A stretch of 28,687 nucleotides of DNA from Candidatus Zhuqueibacterota bacterium (GTDB taxonomy: Bacteria; BS750m-G25): contig JADHWK010000029.1 in assembly GCA_016783505.1 (NCBI GenBank), positions 1-28,687 of the forward strand, in the 5' to 3' direction. How positions within the stretch are numbered: position 1 is the stretch's first letter; each line of letters opens with the position of its first letter. The notes beneath the pieces are model-generated. The model saw only the letters and a list, made by a program, of their open reading frames with translations, ran no database searches and was not told where the DNA came from. Shown one piece after another: positions 7,311-28,003 of this stretch. A program made the position numbers and the translations under genes.

Positions 7311-8231
7311 ATGTTTTCAAAAAGGATTCTTGTTTTTTACATTTACTCCGCTGTTGCTTGGTCTGTTGTGGCGATAAGCGGGTGTGAGAAGGGGATATCC
7401 ATGGGCGAACTAGTGCCCCGCAGGATGCACGGGTGGAAGGCAGAGGGTAAGGACGAGATTTACAACCGGGACAGCATTTTCGATTACATTAACGGAGCCG
7501 GTGAGATTTATCGCGCCTATGGTTTTCGGGAGTTGTTGGTGCGCCTCTTTGTCAAGGCTGACCAGCCGGACATTGTGGTTGAGCTGTTCGATATGGGATC
7601 AGCAGGGGACGCTTTTGGGGTCTTTACCCATGGGAGGGGGGGTGAGGGGGGAGACATCGGACAGGGTTCAGAATACAGAGGGAGCCTATTGTGCTTCTGG
7701 AAGGGTAACTTCTTTGGGTGCGTCTTTGCCGAGCAGGAGACCGAGGCGGCAAAGGAGGCAGTACTGGATCTGGGCCGGGCCATTGCCGGGGCCATCAAGG
7801 TAATCGGGGAAAAACCGAGGCTGTTGGACTATCTACCGAAGGAGGGTTTAATGGAAAGAAGCGTCCATTACTTTCACACCTACCCTTCCCTGAACTATCA
7901 TTACTACCTCGCCAGCGAAAACATTTTAAACCTTGACGAAAGCACCGAGGCGGTGTTGGCCGGATACCAGCCCGCCGAAGGCAAAAGCTATCTTCTCCTG
8001 GTGCGTTACCCTGATGGGAAGCGGGCAAAGGGGGCGTTTGAACGATTCATAGGGGCTTATATTCCCGAAGCAGCTCATACGGGTATTACCCAGCTCGAGA
8101 ATGGTAAATGGACCGGGGCGAAGGTATATCAGGAATTTGTAATCGTGGCCTTCGATGCTCCTACCAGGAATTATGCAGAAGCTTGGCTTGAAGCGGTTAG
8201 AGAGAAGATAGCCACACAAGTCGAAGAATAG
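7311..8231 (+). CDS. DUF6599-like lipoprotein
   Basis: A predicted lipoprotein of 306 residues: hydrophobic N-terminus and lipobox AISGC with C25. The patterns YINGAGEIYRAYGF, VVELFDMGSAGDAFGVF and SLLCFWKGNFFGCVFA resemble the DUF6599 family, whose function I do not know. The second half has a related fold-like pattern ending in VIVAFDAPTRNYAEAWL. A GGGAGAA ribosome binding site lies 9 bases before the ATG. It stands alone between the tmRNA terminator and a MITE-like repeat. The family assignment comes from recognition of motifs and was not verified by search. Confidence 0.7.
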   Translation: MFSKRILVFYIYSAVAWSVVAISGCEKGISMGELVPRRMHGWKAEGKDEIYNRDSIFDYINGAGEIYRAYGFRELLVRLFVKADQPDIVVELFDMGSAGDAFGVFTHGRGGEGGDIGQGSEYRGSLLCFWKGNFFGCVFAEQETEAAKEAVLDLGRAIAGAIKVIGEKPRLLDYLPKEGLMERSVHYFHTYPSLNYHYYLASENILNLDESTEAVLAGYQPAEGKSYLLLVRYPDGKRAKGAFERFIGAYIPEAAHTGITQLENGKWTGAKVYQEFVIVAFDAPTRNYAEAWLEAVREKIATQVEE

Positions 8232-8466: not shown

Positions 8467-8520
8467 ACCAGAACCTTATCTTTAGATAGGTTTAATATAG
8501 AGGAAACGAGGAGAGTGCCC

Positions 8521-9420
8521 ATGAGAGAGTCCGTGAAGGTCATTACTCGTCGTGATTTTATTCGGGGGACCGCCGGTGCCACTTTGGCATTGGCGATGGG
8601 CCTGGGGGCAGAAGGGCGAAAGGGGGTTAAGCCCGCCAGGAAGACAAGAGTGGTTCTGGTGCGGGATGCGGGGGCAATGGATGAGCAGGGACGCATCAAC
8701 ACCAGGGTGATTCAGCGGATGATGGATCAGGGGGTGGGGGCCCTGGTCGACAGGGAAGACACCGTCCAGGCCTGGAGGCTTCTGGTGAAACCCACCGATG
8801 TGGTGGGAATCAAAAGTAATGTTTGGGGCCCGCTTCCAACCCCCCCGGAGGTGGAGCAAGCCATCAAGGCACGGCTTATGGATGTGGGGGTGCCCGAGGG
8901 AAACATCGGTATTGACGACCGCGGGGTGCGGGGTAACCGCATCTTTAAGGACGCAACGGCATTGATCAACGCCCGGCCCTTAAGAACTCATCATTGGTCG
9001 GGGGTGGGCGGATGCATCAAAAATTACATTATGTTCGTCCCCAGAGCCTGGGCCTACCACGGCGACTCCTGTGCCGATTTAGGAGCCATATGGAACAAGC
9101 CCAATGTAAAAGGAAAAACGCGGTTGAATGTGCTAATCTTGCTGCGTCCCCTCTTTTATGGCATTGGTCCCCACCATTTTGACATGACATACTCCTGGTA
9201 CTATAAAGGTGTTCTTTTAGGAACCGACCCGGTGGCGGTGGACGCGGTCGGTCTGCACCTTTTCCGGGCCAAGCGGCTTATCCACTTTGGCGAAGAGAAA
9301 CCTTTCCGCCCGCCGCCCAAGCACATCGCTCTGGCCGATACCCGACACAAACTGGGTATCAGCAACTTAGAAGAGATTGAGTTGGTGAAGTTGGGTTGGG
9401 ACGAGGACATCCTGATTTGA
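8521..9420 (+). CDS. DUF362 domain protein with Tat signal
   Basis: 299 residues. The N-terminus TRRDFIRGTAGATLALAMG is a twin-arginine signal, so the folded protein is expected outside the cytoplasm. The patterns VVLVRDAG, KPTDVVGIKSNVWG and LLGTDPVAVDAVG are typical of DUF362, a family that often accompanies ferredoxin domains; no CxxC ferredoxin motif is seen here, so this is the bare domain. The start at 8521 is chosen because GAGGAG lies 7 bases upstream; a GTG at 8515 is too close to it. The stop TGA is followed in the same frame by a prmA remnant. Confidence 0.82.
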   Translation: MRESVKVITRRDFIRGTAGATLALAMGLGAEGRKGVKPARKTRVVLVRDAGAMDEQGRINTRVIQRMMDQGVGALVDREDTVQAWRLLVKPTDVVGIKSNVWGPLPTPPEVEQAIKARLMDVGVPEGNIGIDDRGVRGNRIFKDATALINARPLRTHHWSGVGGCIKNYIMFVPRAWAYHGDSCADLGAIWNKPNVKGKTRLNVLILLRPLFYGIGPHHFDMTYSWYYKGVLLGTDPVAVDAVGLHLFRAKRLIHFGEEKPFRPPPKHIALADTRHKLGISNLEEIELVKLGWDEDILI

Positions 9421-19352: not shown

Positions 19353-21650
19353 ATGCGTCGCCCTATCCTCTTATCCATCGCCATTGTAGGGTTCTCTTCA
19401 TTGATCGCCCAGGTGATCTTCCTCCGCCAGTTTACCGTTATCTTCTACGGCAATGAGCTTACCCTGGGGGTCATTCTCGGAAACTGGCTTTTGTGGACGG
19501 CGGCCGGGAGCGGGCTGGCTACCCTGTTTCTGAAAAGGATCTCCTCCCCCCGCCGGCTATTTTCCACCCTGCAGTTCCTCCTCGCCTTTATCCTGCCCGC
19601 CACCCTGTTTCTCCTGCGGGCCAACCGCCTTTTACTGGACAGATCCCTGGGAGAAATTGTGGGCCCCCTTCCCATCCTGTGGGTCTCGGCCATCACCCTT
19701 TTTCCCTACTGTCTCATAAACGGGATTCTGTTCGCCCTGGGGGTCCACATCCATGCCGCCGATACCGACGAGAAAGGACAATCGGTGGGCTGGGTTTACT
19801 TAGCTGAGGCGGCGGGGTCGGCCCTGGGGGGCGCCCTTCTGGGATTTTTCCTCATCCGGGTGCAGCCCCCCTTCCAGATCCTCTTTTTGACCTCCTGTCT
19901 TAATCTGCTGGGGGCCTTGACCCTCACTGGATTTTTCTGGCAGATAAAATCCGCCGGAAGATGGCTCATCTTCGCCGTTTTCCTGATTCTGTTCCCGGCC
20001 CTCTCGCTGACCATCATTCCCCGGTTGGAAACCCTTTCCCAGCGGATCCTCTGGCAGGGGTATGAACTTCTGGAGACTAATGAGACCATCTACGGCAACA
20101 TCGCCGTCACCCGGCTGGGGGAGAGCCGCAGCTTTTTCGAAAACGGCCTGTTGATGTTCACCAATCCCGACCTATTCTACGCCGAAGAGTCGGTTCACTT
20201 TGCCTTACTGGAACACCCGCAGCCCCGAAGGGTGCTCCTGATCGGGGGGGGAATAGGGGGGGGACTGAAACAGGTGCTGGCCCATCCCAGCATTGAAAGG
20301 GTGGATTATGTGGAGCTCGATCCGGGCCTGATCGAATTGGGAAGGGAACATCTGCCGCCGGAAGAGACAAATGCCCTGTCCGATCCCCGGGTGGCCCTGC
20401 ACCACCGTGACGGCCGGGCGTTCATCAAAGGGACCAGCCAGACCTACGACGTGGTTTTGGTCAACCTGCCCGACCCCCATACCGCCCAGTTAAATCGGTT
20501 TTATACCCTGACCTTTTTCCAATTGGTCAAAGAAAAGCTGAACCCCGGTGGAATTTTGGCCTTCAGTTTGACATCGGGCGAAAATTTCATAGGGAAAGAC
20601 CTGGGGTATTTCCTGACCTGCATTCTTAATACCCTCAAACAGGTCTTCCCCGACATCGTACTCATCCCGGGGGATACCAATTATTTTATTGCCTGCAAGA
20701 GCAAAGGGGTGCTGACTGAAGACCCCATGGTTCTGGTCCAGAGAATAAAAGAACGAGGTCTCCCCACCAAATTTGTGAGGGAGTATTACCTCCCTTACCG
20801 CATGTCCCCCGAAAGAATGAACTACCTTAAGACTAGATTGGCGGAATCTTCCAGTGAAGAGATAAATCAAGATTTCAGGCCGGTGGGCTATTTTTACGAC
20901 ATCGTCCTCTGGGACACCTACTTCCGAACCGGATTTAAGAATTTCTTCATGCTGATTTCAAAACTCAGTTTTGGGAGAATTGTACCTCTTCTCATCGGTC
21001 TTTTCCTGTTATATTTGGCCCTGTCTTATTTTCGCAGGAAAAAGAGGGGACTGGTCCTACCGGGGATTCGGCTTTCCGTGGCGGTGGTGGGGTTCTCCGA
21101 GATCGCCCTGGAGGTGATCGTTATTCTGGGATTTCAGATCGTCTACGGCTATGCCTACTACCTGTTGACCCTGATCATCGCCGGGTATATGGTGGGATTA
21201 AGCGGGGGGAGTTACCTGTGCACCCGGAAATTGGCGAAGATGGGAAGGCCCCTGCTTACCTTCAAAGCCCTGCAGGGAGCCATGGTGCTTTTGCCCCTGC
21301 TAATCATCGGCTTTCTGATGTTTAGTTCCCATCAGACGGGCATATTATCAACTATTTCTCTGGGTCTTTTCCCGGGATTGGCCATGTTGGCCGGGGGGCT
21401 GGGGGGATTCCAATTCCCATTGGCTAATCAACTCATTCAACGGGAAAATACTACCCAACGGGAAGCCGGGCAGACAGCGGGGCGGCTGTACGCCCTGGAT
21501 CTGGTGGGCTCCTGTCTGGGAGCCTTTCTGGTGAGTGCCTTTCTGATTCCTATCATTGGAATCAGTGAAACCTGTTTTTTGCTGGCCGTCTTGAATATTT
21601 TTCCCCTGATTTTGCTATGGTGGGGAACAAAAGAAACCCCCAAGGGTTGA
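19353..21650 (+). CDS. Membrane-embedded spermidine synthase-like protein
   Basis: 765 residues: about six N-terminal membrane helices (residues 5-220), a SpeE-like methyltransferase-fold domain (about 235-450) and about six C-terminal helices (from about 530). This is the common architecture of fused transporter/spermidine-synthase proteins. The nucleotide-binding glycine motif is GGGIGGG (298-304), whereas true enzymes have Asp or Glu at the fourth position. E321 and D323 of VELDP are kept. The catalytic loop reads N371-LPDP, where SpeE has an Asp first. Aminopropyl transfer is therefore doubtful; the natural substrate is unknown. There is no Shine-Dalgarno, in line with a leaderless mRNA. 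Confidence 0.8.
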   Translation: MRRPILLSIAIVGFSSLIAQVIFLRQFTVIFYGNELTLGVILGNWLLWTAAGSGLATLFLKRISSPRRLFSTLQFLLAFILPATLFLLRANRLLLDRSLGEIVGPLPILWVSAITLFPYCLINGILFALGVHIHAADTDEKGQSVGWVYLAEAAGSALGGALLGFFLIRVQPPFQILFLTSCLNLLGALTLTGFFWQIKSAGRWLIFAVFLILFPALSLTIIPRLETLSQRILWQGYELLETNETIYGNIAVTRLGESRSFFENGLLMFTNPDLFYAEESVHFALLEHPQPRRVLLIGGGIGGGLKQVLAHPSIERVDYVELDPGLIELGREHLPPEETNALSDPRVALHHRDGRAFIKGTSQTYDVVLVNLPDPHTAQLNRFYTLTFFQLVKEKLNPGGILAFSLTSGENFIGKDLGYFLTCILNTLKQVFPDIVLIPGDTNYFIACKSKGVLTEDPMVLVQRIKERGLPTKFVREYYLPYRMSPERMNYLKTRLAESSSEEINQDFRPVGYFYDIVLWDTYFRTGFKNFFMLISKLSFGRIVPLLIGLFLLYLALSYFRRKKRGLVLPGIRLSVAVVGFSEIALEVIVILGFQIVYGYAYYLLTLIIAGYMVGLSGGSYLCTRKLAKMGRPLLTFKALQGAMVLLPLLIIGFLMFSSHQTGILSTISLGLFPGLAMLAGGLGGFQFPLANQLIQRENTTQREAGQTAGRLYALDLVGSCLGAFLVSAFLIPIIGISETCFLLAVLNIFPLILLWWGTKETPKG

Positions 21651-21944: not shown

Positions 21945-23120
21945 TCACGGCCCTCCCTCTTTTTCAAAATAGCTAATCATATCATAAAGGCTTTGCATGG
22001 CATAATCGTATCCCTTAGCTGCGTAATGGATGGTGTGGTTGAGCACACGGGCTAGCCATAGATGAAACAGCAGTTCTTGCCATGGTTTTTTAGCTTCAAG
22101 GAAGTTTGCCAGTAAAATCTTATAGGCTTCATACCAGGCTTCAGGGCTTATGAAACGTACGTCGGGACGAGAGCTATTCTCACTGCAGGCTAGCATACCC
22201 TCACGGATATTGGTGGGGAACAGGTCTAATAATTCCACCTCTTCTTTAGTCCAGTTCTCTCGCAATAGGGGTATTGTGCCCTCAAGGTCAAATGCTTTTT
22301 TCTCCCTTATAGCTTTAGGGACATTGGCCACTGCATCTTTTTTATAGACCATACCAGCAGTATCTATTTTTAGCGATTGGTTTTCCTTTATGATCGAGAA
22401 ACATTCTATTAGCATTGTGTAAAGGTCGGTTAGCTTACCGTAGAGCTTGTGAAGTTTACCCTCCTCTATGTAAGATTCGTAAAGCGGGACTTTGTATCTA
22501 CAAAAGCCAAGCGTATAAGCAGTGTCAACAGCCCAATCGCTATAATTTAGTACCAGACTATCGTTCGCAAGCCTCAGCGCCACTTCTCTTTTTATGGCTA
22601 GTTCGCCGCCAAGTGGCTGCTCAACATTAGCCAGTATAGTATGCGGCCAACAAGAGGCAAGCCCACATTTGGTGATGTTCCAGGTGATCATGGCATCTGT
22701 TGAGACCCGTGGAAAGAAGAACCGTACCACATCAAAGCCATCTTTGAGCTTTTTCTCTGCACACGTAATCCAATCCTGACTAAAAGTTAGAATGTCAGCA
22801 TCATAAAAATGGATCGTCTGATAGGGGGTGCGGCTAATGAAGAAATTCAATGCAGTATTCATGCCATCACCTTTGCCGGCCCGTCGTTTGGTGCCCAGCC
22901 GAGTCTGAAGCATCAAATGCACCTTTTTGCTGTTTTCGTGTTCGATGGAAGGGATCGTTGCCTCAATCTCTTTGAAACAATCGTTCTTCTCATAACCGAC
23001 ACAGATTACAGCACCCACTTTAGGGTGCTTTATAACCTCCTTGATATTCTTGGTGAAGACTTGTACGTCTTCTTTTTTGAAGGGGAAACAAACTGCGCTT
23101 TTCGGATCTTCTCGGCTCAT
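21945..23120 (-). CDS. mgs: Mannosylglycerate synthase (family GT78)
   Basis: Retaining glycosyltransferase that makes alpha-mannosylglycerate, a compatible solute, from GDP-mannose and D-glycerate in one step. 391 residues from the ATG at 23120; the sequence follows the Rhodothermus marinus enzyme throughout. Key parts: KGDGMNTAL with K83, the metal-binding D107-A-D109 (HFYDADI), PRVSTDAMITW, EQPLGGELA, and H224 in LHKLYG, the extra metal ligand. A GTG at 23153 lengthens the frame but has no binding site and no homology. The gene is lower in GC than its neighbours and is bracketed by the AMMECR1 copy and the intact gene end, which points to insertion. Confidence 0.92.
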   Translation of the reverse strand: MSREDPKSAVCFPFKKEDVQVFTKNIKEVIKHPKVGAVICVGYEKNDCFKEIEATIPSIEHENSKKVHLMLQTRLGTKRRAGKGDGMNTALNFFISRTPYQTIHFYDADILTFSQDWITCAEKKLKDGFDVVRFFFPRVSTDAMITWNITKCGLASCWPHTILANVEQPLGGELAIKREVALRLANDSLVLNYSDWAVDTAYTLGFCRYKVPLYESYIEEGKLHKLYGKLTDLYTMLIECFSIIKENQSLKIDTAGMVYKKDAVANVPKAIREKKAFDLEGTIPLLRENWTKEEVELLDLFPTNIREGMLACSENSSRPDVRFISPEAWYEAYKILLANFLEAKKPWQELLFHLWLARVLNHTIHYAAKGYDYAMQSLYDMISYFEKEGGP

Positions 23121-23210
23121 ATGATAAAACAGTTGCCTCTCCCTATTTATCACAGAATGTCTTTAAAGAGAGGCAACCAGGGTCATAAAATTTAGACATT
23201 AGTCAACAGT

Positions 23211-23258: not shown

Positions 23259-24857
23259 TCACTCTAGCTCTTCCTCTCCGAACACCTCAGCGGTGAAGGT
23301 TTCGATCACCGTATTCTCATCCTTCCAGGCATCCGGGGGAAGTCCCGCCTTGTGGGCGCAGAGGTTGGACAGGAAGGTCTCCCGATCCCACCCCGTCTCA
23401 TCAGCAACCTGGGGCAAAAATACCCCCTGGTTTGGTCCCCGCTTTACGATCACCCCATGCTTGCCCATCACGATTTTAGCCACGTCCGTAACCCTCTGAG
23501 GGACCGACAGAACGGATATTTCAATCGAGATGTCCTTCAGTTCCTCCGGGCTGACCGGGGGGAAGCGGTAGTCGTTAAGGGCGGATGATTCGGCCATCTC
23601 GCGTACCGTTAAGCCGAGGGGCTTGACCGGCAGGATGTAACCGATGCAGCCCCGGAGCTGCCCGTGTTTGTGGATGGTCACAAACGCCCCCCGATCTTCC
23701 TTCAACACGCCAGAACTGACCTTAAATTCGGGCACCTTCTCCCCCTGGACCACCTTTTCGATGGTGGTGCGGGCGATGTGGAGAAGCTCCCGTTTTTCCT
23801 CTCTGGAAAGCCCCATAGTTTCTCCCTGATTTTTTTCTTCGTCTGAGTTACCACCCCTCTCTCCTTGGCTTGGGGGGGGCTGCGGCCATTGACCGGTGAA
23901 GCAGATAGAGGCGTAGCTCACCGAGCTGGAATAATCCCCGGTGAGGTCAATGGAGGTGTAATAGTCCAGCAGCTTCCCCTTGGCTCCCTCAGGCAGGAGC
24001 TTTAAAAGAACGGCGATGGGCATGCGGCCGCAGATGGTGATGCCGGTATTGGTTAGATAGTCCAGAAGCCCATCGAAATCTCCGGCAATAATCAGGTCAA
24101 TGGCCCCCTGATCCAGCTCCCCCAGACGGGCTTTCGTTCCCACCTCGGTGTCTTCCACAAAAGGCATGTAACCGAACCGCCGGCCGTAATGGGTAAAATC
24201 CGAGCTGGCAACCACCAGGGTTCTGGAATTCAGATGTTTAGCTATTGCCCCTGCGATCTTTCCATAGTCCTCATTAGTTAAAAATCCAATAAGAACCGGC
24301 ACGATCTTAAAATCACTCAGGACTTCCTGCAGGAAGGGGAGCTGAACCTCGATGGAATGTTCCGGGCCATGAGCCTGGGGGACGGTGGAAAAAAGCTCCT
24401 TCTTTAAAAGCGCTTTACAAATTTCAAGGTCAAGGGGAACTCTTCCCAGGGGGGTTTCATAATAATCAACTGCGGGAATGGAGGCTCCCCGGAAGCTGGC
24501 GTAATGAGTGGGCCCGAGGATGATAACCCGATTGAATTCTCGCCCCCCCAACAATTTGTAACCGTATGCTGCCGCCCGGCCCGAATAGGTGTAGCCGGCG
24601 TGGGGGGAGATCAGGGCGATGATATCCCCGGCGATGGAGGGGATCTCCACCCTCTTTAGATAGGAGTTCACTTGGCCTTTGAGGATTACTGGATCGGAGG
24701 GATAAAAGCCCCCCGCCTGAGCGGGAGGCCTGACCCTTTCAGTTATGATGGACTGGGTCGCCGTTTCTCCCCCCCCTTTTTCCGGGGATGGTTTTTGGCC
24801 CTTGCATCCGATAAGAACGGATGCGGACAGCAAAATCATTATTATGGATCTGATCAT
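23259..24857 (-). CDS. Memo-AMMECR1 fusion lipoprotein (AmmeMemoRadiSam proteins B and A)
   Basis: 532 residues from the ATG at 24857 with GGGGAT about 6 bases upstream; a TTG at 24869 is a weaker alternative. Lipobox LIGC with C18 predicts a membrane lipoprotein. Residues 44-320 are a Memo domain, the fold of non-haem iron dioxygenases. The residues matching human MEMO1 metal ligands are present: H86 (ISPHAGYTYSG), H118 (LGPTHYASF) and C276 (TGITICGRMP); EHSIEVQLPFL is also kept. A proline/acidic linker (322-347) leads to an AMMECR1 domain (348-532) with LRGCIGYILP, C404. The function of the system is not established. The radical SAM partner lies upstream. Confidence 0.93.
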   Translation of the reverse strand: MIRSIIMILLSASVLIGCKGQKPSPEKGGGETATQSIITERVRPPAQAGGFYPSDPVILKGQVNSYLKRVEIPSIAGDIIALISPHAGYTYSGRAAAYGYKLLGGREFNRVIILGPTHYASFRGASIPAVDYYETPLGRVPLDLEICKALLKKELFSTVPQAHGPEHSIEVQLPFLQEVLSDFKIVPVLIGFLTNEDYGKIAGAIAKHLNSRTLVVASSDFTHYGRRFGYMPFVEDTEVGTKARLGELDQGAIDLIIAGDFDGLLDYLTNTGITICGRMPIAVLLKLLPEGAKGKLLDYYTSIDLTGDYSSSVSYASICFTGQWPQPPPSQGERGGNSDEEKNQGETMGLSREEKRELLHIARTTIEKVVQGEKVPEFKVSSGVLKEDRGAFVTIHKHGQLRGCIGYILPVKPLGLTVREMAESSALNDYRFPPVSPEELKDISIEISVLSVPQRVTDVAKIVMGKHGVIVKRGPNQGVFLPQVADETGWDRETFLSNLCAHKAGLPPDAWKDENTVIETFTAEVFGEEELE

Positions 24858-24890
24858 TTTGATCCCCAATGCTAAATTTCAGTGTAAAAG

Positions 24891-24980
24891 TTCACCACGG
24901 TCCCGAGCATTCGGGATCACGGAACTGCACAGAAATCCTTTGCCCATTTCTAATCTTTTCCTGTGTTATTCTGTGGTGAA
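24891..24980. repeat. Inverted repeat element in the Memo-AMMECR1 promoter region
   Basis: Ends TTCACCAC (24891-24898) and GTGGTGAA (24973-24980), with an internal hairpin TCCCGA, GCAT, TCGGGA (24901-24916). The overall layout resembles common TTCACCACAG elements. It fills most of the spacer between the peptidase and fusion genes. Confidence 0.65.
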
Positions 24981-25018
24981 ATATTGCATTTCAGCAAAAT
25001 TTCTTGTTGCCTCGAAAT

Positions 25019-26671
25019 TTACTCCAGTTTCAGGCTACGCAGGTAAGCTGATGAGCCCAGGGGTCGGCCGGTGGCCTTTTCTATCCGCCGGGTCCACTCC
25101 TCTGTTTCCCCCGCTTCGTACAGGTTCTTCACCAGCCACTGGCCCACGCCGACGGAGTCCACTACCCCCTCCCCAAACTTTGCCACCATGGTTTCATGAA
25201 CCTGGGCGGAGATCAACGAGGACAGGAGATAATTTTGGAAATAAACCGGATAGGTGGTTAACAGGGTGTTGGCTGCCCAACTGGCCGGTTCGTCCTCGGA
25301 AATTTCCAAGAACAGGAATTGACGGATAAAGGCCTTATGGAGGCTGTCAAGATCGGCCCCTAAATTTCCATAGGCCTCTAGTTCAAAAGTAATAGTAGCC
25401 AATAGTGACCGGAGACCGTAGATTTTGGATTGGATTTTCGCCCTTTGGTAAACCGAGATCAAGCTATCCGGCACCTGAGTATAGGTTGTCAACCACAGGG
25501 GATCCTGGGTGTAATCAGCGATGATGTCGGCCAGTCCCTCGGAATAGCCGGGGCTAGTGTTGCCCAGCAGCCATTCGTACCCCTTGAGGATGGGCGGTTT
25601 CACCCGGGTATAGACCGCCTGGAGACCGTGCCCGTATTCGTGAAAGAGGATCCCGTAGAAGCGGTGGCCCTGCACCGGGCCGACCAAAAGCCGGTCATCT
25701 TCAGGGATGCGGACGGCCAGGTTGAGCCCTCCATAAGGGATGTCCTTGAACACCACCCTAATGGGGAGGGTTTCAATCGGGAAGCCGATGGCGTTCAAAA
25801 AACGGGTGAGGATGGGGAGGGCCTCTTGGGTAGTGAAATAGCTGTCGGGCAAGGAGGCCGTTTTATGTAAAAGATAATCCATATCCCAGGGATGGAGGGT
25901 CTCTACTTCCCATTGCCGCTTAAGGCTGTCCAGTAAGGTTTGGTAAGGCCGGCGGGTCTTTTCCTCCAACCCGGCCATAAGCTCCTCCAACCATTTCCGA
26001 TCAACCCCCTGCAGGCTTAAGCAGAGGCTGGCGTAATCGGGGAAACCCAGCGCCCGGGCCTTTTGGTTCCGCATGGCCATTAGCCTTAATAGATCCCCTT
26101 CCACCACCGATGAAAGCTGGGCGGCAACACCCCAGGCCCGGTGTCTTTTTCCCGGATCGTCCTCCAGACGCAGGATTTGGGAAATTTGGGCCCTGGATAT
26201 CGCTTCACTGTTTAAACGATAACTAAAATCAGCGATTATCTTCTCCAGTTTATTTTCCAGGGAGTAGATTTCCGGGTTATTATCCACCGTCGCCCCCAGG
26301 AAGCAGCGGTGCCAGAGCTCCAGCCGGCGGGCCAGGAGGGGGTTGTCCTGGGTCCCGATGCGACCCTGCCAAGTATCCACCGTCTTTTGGTACTCTTCGT
26401 TCAAAAGGATTTCGGCGAATTCCTTTTTTACCGAATCCAAGTCCGCCGGACCCTCACCTGTGTAGATATTCCAATTGGCCTCGCCCATATGAACAGAGGC
26501 CATCTCCAACTTAAGCTCGAGACTGTCAAGCATAGTGATCAACGCTTCAACTTGGTTGATATCAGTCCCGAAAAAGCCCTTTTCCCTCATGGTTCCGCAG
26601 CCGAGGATCATTATAATGATAAGAATAAAGATGAAATGGCTAAAAGGAAAATAATTAATTTTTTTATACAT
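25019..26671 (-). CDS. M3-like metallopeptidase lipoprotein
   Basis: 550 residues from the ATG at 26671. Long hydrophobic N-terminus ending in MILGC with C25, a lipobox. The zinc site HEYGH lies at 344-348 with a glutamate, E378, in YSEGLADIIADY some 30 residues later, the pattern of gluzincins of the M3 (oligopeptidase) and M2 type. The long helical first half fits that clan. An ATG at 26716 would add 15 residues before the hydrophobic part; the ribosome binding region is ambiguous (GGAGG at about 26703-26710). The substrate is unknown. The gene stands between the radical SAM and Memo-AMMECR1 genes on the same strand. Confidence 0.82.
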   Translation of the reverse strand: MYKKINYFPFSHFIFILIIIMILGCGTMREKGFFGTDINQVEALITMLDSLELKLEMASVHMGEANWNIYTGEGPADLDSVKKEFAEILLNEEYQKTVDTWQGRIGTQDNPLLARRLELWHRCFLGATVDNNPEIYSLENKLEKIIADFSYRLNSEAISRAQISQILRLEDDPGKRHRAWGVAAQLSSVVEGDLLRLMAMRNQKARALGFPDYASLCLSLQGVDRKWLEELMAGLEEKTRRPYQTLLDSLKRQWEVETLHPWDMDYLLHKTASLPDSYFTTQEALPILTRFLNAIGFPIETLPIRVVFKDIPYGGLNLAVRIPEDDRLLVGPVQGHRFYGILFHEYGHGLQAVYTRVKPPILKGYEWLLGNTSPGYSEGLADIIADYTQDPLWLTTYTQVPDSLISVYQRAKIQSKIYGLRSLLATITFELEAYGNLGADLDSLHKAFIRQFLFLEISEDEPASWAANTLLTTYPVYFQNYLLSSLISAQVHETMVAKFGEGVVDSVGVGQWLVKNLYEAGETEEWTRRIEKATGRPLGSSAYLRSLKLE

Positions 26672-26851
26672 CCTATAAATTCCCGGCCTTAAATTATTCT
26701 CAATTCCTCCTGCCATTTAAACGAATTTAGCCCCTTTTCGACAGAAAGGAAAATCGCCTTACCCTTGTCCCCCCCTCTCCTCCGCCTCCCTGCTCCTTTT
26801 GCTTTAATTTGAAACATCAGGGCCATTTCTTATCTTTACCAATCTGAGGCC

Positions 26852-28003
26852 CTATTTCCACACCCCGGGAATGACTTCCCCGCAAGAGGAACATTTTCCC
26901 CCGTTGAGCTTTACATCCAAAATGGTATACCCAATGCGGTGGATGATGGTTTCCCCGCACGATGGACAGGTGGTGCTCTCGCCGGGGTGGCCGGGAACGT
27001 TCCCGATGTAGACATAATGCAGCCCGGCCTCCAGGGCGATGTCCCTAGTTCTCTCTAAGGTGGATACTGGGGTAGGGGGGATGTTCTTTAGCTGATACTG
27101 GGGATAGAATCGGGAGAAGTGAAGGGGCACCCCAGGGCCCAGCTCAGAGGCGATCCAGCGGCACATGGCCTTCAGATCCCCCGGCTGGTCGTTCAGGGTG
27201 GGGATGATGAGATAGACGATCTCCGTCCACATACCCATATCCTTGAGAAGTACCAACGTATCCAGCACCGGTTTCAGTCCCCCCACCACGAATTCCCGGT
27301 AGAATTTCTCAGTGTAGGCTTTAAGATCTATCTTGACGGCGTCCAGCACCCGGCACAGCTTTTTCATGGGCTCCTTGCTGATGTAGCCGTTGGTGATCAT
27401 CACTGACTTTATCCCCTGTTCCCGCCCCAACTCGGCGGTATCGTACATGTATTCGTAGAAGATCACCGGTTCGGTGTAGGTGTAGGCGATGGTGGGGCAT
27501 TTTCGTTGGACGGCGAGGCGAACGATGGCTTCCGGGGGGCCGTCCAACCCCGGCTCTTGCTCGGGCCGGACCTGGGAGATCTGCCAGTTCTGACAGAATT
27601 TGCAGTTGACGTTGCAGCCCACGGTGGCGATAGAGAGCGCTTCGGTGCCCGGAAGAAAATGAAACAGGGGTTTCTTTTCAATGGGGTCGAGGTGGAGGGA
27701 GCAGGGTCGGGAATGGACCAGCGTCCAGTAGATTCCCCCCCGGTTCTCACGGACCCCGCAGTAGCCCCGCTCCTGGTCGTCAATGACGCACTCCCGGGGG
27801 CAGAGGGTGCACCGGATCTTCCGATGGGGTAATCTTTCGTAGTAGCGTGCTTCCACCAGAAATTCTTCGGCGGCGGATTCAAAATAGGGGGGGCGGGAGG
27901 CCAAGGCCTTTCTGGCTAAAGGAAAGACCCCGGCCCCTACGGCGCAAAAGGCCGCCGAGGTCTTTAGAAACTTCCGTCGGGATATGTGACCGGGTTTCAT
28001 CAT
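26852..28003 (-). CDS. amrS: AmmeMemoRadiSam-type radical SAM enzyme with Tat signal
   Basis: 383 residues. R9-R10 in SRRKFLKTSAAFCAV followed by a hydrophobic stretch is a twin-arginine signal. Next comes a cysteine cluster CTLCPREC (C65, C68, C72) and C82, then the radical SAM motif C130-x3-C134-x2-C137 (GCNVNCKFCQNW), typical of the PflA/AmmeMemoRadiSam branch. ITNGYIS and KIDLKAY follow. The C-terminus has two CxxC pairs (CPSCGE, CSSCGE), a zinc ribbon. A TTG at 28027 is a poorer start; ATG at 28003 or 28000 is preferred because it directly precedes the Tat motif. Confidence 0.93.
   Translation of the reverse strand: MMKPGHISRRKFLKTSAAFCAVGAGVFPLARKALASRPPYFESAAEEFLVEARYYERLPHRKIRCTLCPRECVIDDQERGYCGVRENRGGIYWTLVHSRPCSLHLDPIEKKPLFHFLPGTEALSIATVGCNVNCKFCQNWQISQVRPEQEPGLDGPPEAIVRLAVQRKCPTIAYTYTEPVIFYEYMYDTAELGREQGIKSVMITNGYISKEPMKKLCRVLDAVKIDLKAYTEKFYREFVVGGLKPVLDTLVLLKDMGMWTEIVYLIIPTLNDQPGDLKAMCRWIASELGPGVPLHFSRFYPQYQLKNIPPTPVSTLERTRDIALEAGLHYVYIGNVPGHPGESTTCPSCGETIIHRIGYTILDVKLNGGKCSSCGEVIPGVWK

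Follow-up and report, generated by a model that had tools for sequence, protein, structure and literature searches.

A predicted exported variant of the AmmeMemoRadiSam system, with candidate sources of SAM and electrons outside the cytoplasm

Introduction

SAM, low-potential electrons, and the care of iron-sulfur clusters are all located in the cytoplasm, and radical SAM enzymes are therefore regarded as belonging to that compartment. A 28,687-nucleotide stretch of DNA from a Candidatus Zhuqueibacterota bacterium (contig JADHWK010000029.1, positions 1 to 28,687; the whole stretch is called the window below) raises the question of whether the AmmeMemoRadiSam system (TIGR04335, TIGR04336, and TIGR04337; enzyme annotated amrS) has a form that works elsewhere. 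A preliminary description of the window, based on its sequence, had reported export signals on a radical SAM enzyme, on a Memo-AMMECR1 fusion, and on a peptidase encoded between them, and had proposed a periplasmic system. Memo and AMMECR1 are conserved up to humans, and we know of no function for the cytoplasmic AmmeMemoRadiSam system. The literature searched, which covered few subscription papers and preprints, made only passing mention of AmmeMemoRadiSam and nowhere described a radical SAM enzyme as periplasmic, exported, extracytoplasmic, or secreted.

Export signals on the enzyme and the Memo-AMMECR1 fusion

The radical SAM enzyme (rSAM; positions 26852 to 28000, minus strand) scored 382 bits against TIGR04337 (NCBIfam; cutoff, 220). 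Its start is either of two adjacent ATGs, at 28003 or 28000, which gives the N-terminus M(M)KPGHISRRKFLKTSAAFCAVGAGVFPLARKALA|S, i.e., a Tat motif followed by a hydrophobic stretch and an AxA site; the sequence reads MKPGHISRRKFLKTSAAFCAVGAGVFPLARKALA|S. As read from the sequence, the predicted signal peptide (SRRKFLK ... ALA; 27899 to 28000, minus strand) thus combines the twin-arginine motif, hydrophobic stretch, and cleavage site of a Tat substrate at the real N-terminus. Pfam TAT_signal matched with an E value of 8e-4, under its gathering score, and TatC is encoded in the source genome. By sequence, the sole solved relative of the enzyme is pyruvate formate-lyase activating enzyme (3c8f; E value, 1e-4), with which it shares the CX3CX2C motif. 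Unlike that activase, the window enzyme has extra N- and C-terminal cysteine sets and a Tat signal, and it scored 51 bits against the activase model TIGR02493, for which membership takes 232.

The Memo-AMMECR1 fusion (23259 to 24854, minus strand) is a predicted lipoprotein with the lipobox LIGC18. Its Memo domain (residues 42 to 319; 23898 to 24731, minus strand) scored 248 bits against TIGR04336 (cutoff, 26). The AMMECR1 domain (residues 349 to 529; 23268 to 23810, minus strand), which was recognized by TIGR04335 and TIGR00296 and contains the LRGCIG motif, scored 182 bits against TIGR04335 (cutoff, 99), so that the three curated families of the system were all found above cutoff. Pfam detected both domains in the fusion. 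From the ATG at 24854 the protein reads MIRSIIMILLSASVLIGC18 (MIRSIIMILLSASVLIGC); the lipobox reported earlier is present from this start.

The Memo domain resembles human MEMO1 (E value, 2e-36), from which the window protein differs in being fused to AMMECR1 and in bearing a lipobox. MEMO1 binds iron or copper, its iron ligands being H49, H81, and C244 (PMC11081632). These correspond to H85, H117, and C275 in the window protein, and the three residues are invariant in all exported members.

Conservation of the signals across about ten phyla

The preliminary description had suggested a survey of related loci for export signals. With the three rSAM paralogs of the source genome as queries, we scanned 84,980 species genomes and examined the best 80 loci, which came from about ten phyla, among them Latescibacterota, KSB1, Calditrichota, Acidobacteriota, Aminicenantes, Zixibacteria, Myxococcota, Auribacterota, and Planctomycetota. 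Nearly all of the 80 rSAMs had an RRx[FL]-type signal ahead of the catalytic domain, and nearly all of the Memo-AMMECR1 homologs had Sec or lipoprotein signals. The strict Tat rule was failed by 14 of the 80 rSAMs, comprising one known signal-less paralog, one protein truncated by its contig, and others in which the motif was accompanied by a milder hydrophobic stretch. The case for predicted export leans on this conservation, which is better evidence than single-sequence motif rules; in shuffled N-termini, the Tat rule and the lipobox rule are each satisfied in approximately 0.8% of cases. Both the canonical twin-arginine signal of the enzyme and the lipobox of the fusion were upheld.

The peptidase fared differently. 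This M3/M32-like protein (25019 to 26671, minus strand) does have the lipobox attributed to it, reading ...FILIIIMILGC25 from the ATG at 26671. As no homolog was present in any of the best 80 related loci, we judge it to be incidental to the system, and it was dropped as a component. Mannosylglycerate synthase, encoded by an adjoining gene, was likewise set aside, since no homolog was found near any related locus.

Exported and signal-less forms occur side by side in the same cell. The source genome has three TIGR04337 genes: besides that of the window, contig C67 encodes another Tat-tagged enzyme, and contig C13 a signal-less protein of 340 amino acids that begins at the catalytic domain. Its two Memo genes encode the lipoprotein fusion of the window and a signal-less 275-amino-acid protein (contig C1). 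Exported and signal-less sets of rSAM and Memo were found together in most of 27 further genomes. Two plasmid-borne relatives were examined, and neither had a signal.

In a tree of rSAM domains (n = 59, signals trimmed), all 32 exported enzymes fell on one side of a single branch (SH-aLRT, 96), consistent with one change of compartment, against 20 needed with shuffled labels. Exported Memo proteins required five changes, at least two of them forced by starred branches of the tree, which rules out a single exported Memo clade. Since exported Memo is polyphyletic yet paired with exported rSAM, the partner has probably switched compartment repeatedly alongside the enzyme.

These patterns bear on whether the signals could be spurious, or mere anchors with the attached domains facing the cytoplasm. 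The signals are known from reading the sequences, and some of them have no clear AxA site, as this explanation would have it. Against it, they are conserved over about ten phyla and missing in the sister clade, and a domain that follows a Tat or lipoprotein signal ends up outside. We consider it highly improbable.

Catalytic residues in the exported enzymes

All 11 cluster cysteines of the window rSAM are conserved. Among exported rSAMs conservation is complete for the CX3CX2C cysteines and for the N-terminal four, and it is 97% for the C-terminal four; the resulting range, 97 to 100%, equals that of the cytoplasmic clade. An extra cysteine, C100 (RPCSLHLDPIEKKP), occurs in 91% of exported and in none of the cytoplasmic rSAMs. 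Cluster cysteines as strict outside as inside indicate that catalysis is under selection.

This weighs against an explanation in which radical chemistry has been lost and the exported proteins serve as metal or iron-sulfur scaffolds in the envelope. We know of no periplasmic SAM pool or SAM exporter, and none was found in the literature searched, which would fit such a loss, as would the binding of iron or copper by MEMO1 (PMC11081632). With catalytic and auxiliary cysteines kept as in the cytoplasmic clade, and with SAM-fold and electron-transfer neighbors linked to the enzyme (see below), we judge the scaffold explanation to be very unlikely.

Five linked gene families

All genes of the best 80 loci were clustered de novo, with no preselection of families. 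Five recurred: rSAM, DUF362, an MFS/spermidine-synthase-like membrane protein, Memo-AMMECR1, and DUF6599. Each of the five is present in the window, where each is predicted to be exported by a signal or embedded in the membrane, and the genes are scattered across 21 kb on both strands. The DUF6599 protein (7311 to 8231, plus strand; identified by neighbor clustering and signal reading) is a predicted lipoprotein with the lipobox ISGC25, and sequence searches found no solved relative. This protein, the DUF362 protein, and the MFS/spermidine-synthase-like protein are real components of the system, and the preliminary description had overlooked all three in the window.

The linkage is tighter elsewhere. 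The rSAM and Memo-AMMECR1 genes, which in the window have the one peptidase gene between them, lie next to each other in Acidobacteriota and KSB1 relatives, and in 60 of the 80 loci rSAM is followed within 60 bases, or with overlap, by Memo-AMMECR1 or the MFS protein, the overlaps being upper bounds as they come from longest reading frames. Of 64 exported rSAM genes, 57 had a DUF362 gene no more than 1.2 kb away, compared to 0 of 25 cytoplasmic ones. An even acidobacterial sample of 40 TIGR04337 genes, chosen irrespective of likeness to the window, contained 13 exported rSAMs (N-termini were judged by reading, overriding automatic labels); DUF362 or the membrane protein adjoined 10 of these 13 and none of the other 27. 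Sampled cytoplasmic members of the AmmeMemoRadiSam system differ from the predicted exported parts of the window in having neither signals nor DUF362, MFS-SpeE-like, or DUF6599 neighbors.

A periplasmic system, as originally proposed, is thus strongly supported by conservation, the contrast between paralogs, and gene clustering, with the peptidase excluded from it.

A DUF362 protein with a predicted LarA-like fold

The DUF362 protein (8515 to 9420, plus strand) has a predicted Tat signal (ITRRDFIRGTAGATLALAMGLG), as do its homologs in Acidobacteriota, KSB1, Calditrichota, and Latescibacterota. Signal-less DUF362 proteins occurred in about 20 of 65 loci, most of which belong to Aminicenantes and Zixibacteria, so that tagging of every part is not universal. 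Comparison with the PDB by sequence profile gave only a weak chance match, and the family was resolved by fold search. The predicted model (pLDDT, 87; pTM, 0.82) aligned to nine LarA-type entries with Z scores of 10.7 to 12.3, the next best match scoring 5.0 (VIA-align), and H159 and K169 (invariant) pair with H174 and K184 of LarA (hhalign; P = 2e-4). In Lactiplantibacillus plantarum LarA, H174 and K184 are catalytic, and K184 holds the nickel-pincer nucleotide. DUF362 and LarA also share a Pfam clan (PMC11770544).

Besides its predicted export, DUF362 differs from the lactate racemase superfamily in that none of 44 members scanned against Pfam matched Lar_N (PF09861) and no equivalent of LarA R75 was seen in the DUF362 alignment. 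LarC, which inserts nickel, was found in 22 of 28 genomes, among them four that gave no LarA match. Since LarC without LarA occurred in control genomes too, this is a weak pointer to a nickel-pincer nucleotide. Judging from the model, DUF362 has a LarA-like framework; we do not class it as LarA.

The strongest rival to chemistry outside the cytoplasm arises here. The rSAM could modify DUF362 in the cytoplasm, and the complex could then be exported folded, by analogy with the Tat hitchhiking of hydrogenase subunits, making SAM and electrons unnecessary outside. DUF362 is the tightest neighbor of the exported enzyme (57 of 64) and is often signal-less, as a hitchhiker would be, and Tat transports folded cargo loaded with cofactors. 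Such a scheme nevertheless leaves Memo-AMMECR1 aside: as the classical partner is Sec-exported, it would meet the enzyme only outside. The scheme also leaves unexplained both the MFS protein with its outward SAM-fold domain and the exported polyferredoxin described below. On balance we find it unlikely.

Candidate sources of SAM and electrons

The membrane protein (19353 to 21650, plus strand) scored 73 bits against NF037959, "fused MFS/spermidine synthase" (cutoff, 40). Its predicted model (pLDDT, 90; pTM, 0.91) consists of seven helices, a SpeE-fold domain, and seven further helices. The helices match the MFS transporters SV2A, sialin, and SLC15A4 (Z, 22 to 27), and the inserted soluble domain (20052 to 20960, plus strand) matches the SpeE fold (Z, 30). 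Over 50 homologs, the mean number of lysines plus arginines was 4.8, 3.2, 1.8, 2.2, 3.3, 4.4, and 2.1 in the inside loops and 0.0, 1.2, 0.0, 0.1, 0.1, and 0.0 in the outside loops, an alternation which predicts that the N-terminus is inside and the soluble domain outside.

This domain departs from spermidine synthase at the residues that define an aminopropyltransferase. The Asp of GGGDGG, which binds dcSAM, is lost, giving GGGI in the window and GGG[VAIL] in most homologs, and the catalytic Asp of DSxDP is replaced by N371 in the window and by Asn in 33 of 50 homologs. E321 and D353, the acidic residues that bind ribose and adenine, are kept. Spermidine synthesis was accordingly ruled out, and the pattern fits binding of SAM or a nucleoside on the outside rather than a polyamine synthase. 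We infer from it, tentatively, that the protein may transport SAM.

Alternatively, the protein might be a true transferase, moving an aminopropyl or aminocarboxypropyl group onto an envelope molecule, with the rSAM set modifying the product. The SpeE fold and the retained E321 and D353 would suit such an activity; loss of the dcSAM Asp in nearly all homologs, and the mostly substituted catalytic Asp, would not, and we think a transferase quite unlikely.

A possible electron donor was seen in some lineages. In ten loci, mostly acidobacterial, a NapGH-like polyferredoxin carries an internal Tat-like signal (LIRRKLLTGVAAG in locus L019) ahead of its second half. Its gene adjoins DUF6599 and is fused to it once. 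Most of the 80 loci do not have it, and the neighborhood of the window's genes revealed no counterpart. Two Fer4_5 proteins of the source genome were considered as donors and rejected, being unlinked and having no exported half that we could see. A CxxCH motif lies between the Tat signal and the rSAM domain in three sampled proteins, a weak indication as a single motif. Because c-type heme is attached outside the cytoplasm, it would fit an exported rSAM. The SAM and the electron donor that, according to the preliminary description, a radical SAM enzyme would need outside unless exported already loaded now have candidate suppliers, the MFS protein and the NapGH-like polyferredoxin.

Discussion

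Export signals, a single exported clade, a gene cluster, and intact catalytic residues, as read from the sequences, point to a variant of the AmmeMemoRadiSam system that is located outside the cytoplasm and has candidate supplies of SAM and electrons, a reading to which we assign a probability of roughly 0.6. That an exported AmmeMemoRadiSam variant exists we take to be real, and it is unreported in the literature searched.

The rSAM would fold and gain its iron-sulfur clusters in the cytoplasm and leave folded via Tat. DUF362 would leave by its own Tat signal or possibly, where signal-less, piggyback. Memo-AMMECR1 would be exported by Sec, to be lipid anchored or soluble, and its conserved ligands suggest that metal is bound outside. 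This division of routes is very probable. The MFS-fold protein may then deliver or handle SAM outside by means of its predicted outward SAM-fold domain; as an account of SAM supply this is tentative. The membrane would supply the electrons, which in some lineages, as gene neighborhood suggests, would pass via the NapGH-like polyferredoxin with its Tat-exported half. That the exported enzyme performs SAM chemistry outside is, on the evidence above, somewhat favored. It would generate a 5′-deoxyadenosyl radical and activate or modify a partner. The likeliest candidates are AMMECR1/Memo and DUF362, although the choice of these partners is itself doubtful, and the modified partner might act on some envelope substrate. 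Metals, envelope proteins, and peptides had been suggested as substrates, and the analysis singled out none of them.

The most far-reaching form of this reading is, in our estimate, rather unlikely: in some ten phyla, radical SAM reactions would take place outside the cytoplasm, with the MFS protein, which would bear an outward SAM-binding domain, moving SAM or a SAM product across the membrane, electrons of the quinol pool arriving via the exported polyferredoxin, and the LarA-like protein perhaps acting as a nickel-pincer partner. If this is true, both a radical SAM system outside the cytoplasm and a periplasmic pool of SAM would, to our knowledge, be without precedent. A monophyletic, conserved clade of Tat-exported enzymes with dedicated partners makes extracytoplasmic radical SAM chemistry directly testable. 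The exported version also narrows the question of function to a defined list, i.e., rSAM, Memo-AMMECR1, DUF362, the MFS-SpeE-like protein, DUF6599, and the NapGH-like polyferredoxin, together with a compartment and candidate cofactors.

Electron-transfer-type neighbors

DUF6599 and DUF362, both recurrent partners of the exported radical SAM enzyme, adjoin a NapH-NapG-like polyferredoxin at the genome loci L019, L033, L038, L042, L045, L054, L057, L064, L075, and L089, where the polyferredoxin is a single protein with an internal Tat-like signal (L019:6960-8915). In loci of the Aminicenantes type, the gene for the MFS/spermidine-synthase-like membrane protein (MFS protein) is immediately followed by a ferredoxin/Hdr-like/2-oxoacid oxidoreductase-like cluster; loci with such a cluster are L025, L029, L032, L036, L037, L039, L044, L050, L058, L059, L066, L067, L070, and L072.

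Exported radical SAM enzymes and their surroundings

The window's own genome encodes another Tat-tagged TIGR04337 (AmmeMemoRadiSam radical SAM) enzyme on contig C67, followed by its own MFS/spermidine-synthase-like gene (L007:7383-11104); neither Memo nor DUF362 was found near this TIGR04337 gene. The L007 enzyme and L162 form a basal pair within the exported clade of the radical SAM tree. At L213:1589-6300, overlaps of 4 bases each link the radical SAM, Memo-AMMECR1, and MFS protein genes, and the radical SAM proteins of L213, L217, and L222 carry a CxxCH motif between the Tat signal and the catalytic domain. Several genomes encode Memo proteins of a divergent third class that have a long N-terminal extension (L192, L193, and other Memo matches, 408 to 452 aa).

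Within the window, positions 25019..26671 encode a lipoprotein, an M3/M32-like peptidase with an HEYGH motif that scores weakly against all curated families. The compatible-solute gene at 21945..23153 encodes mannosylglycerate synthase (PF21969/PF21967). C100 of the window radical SAM enzyme, in RPCSLHLDPIEKKP, is a cysteine present in 91% of exported versus 0% of cytoplasmic TIGR04337 proteins, and it may possibly have a role in catalysis or substrate binding.
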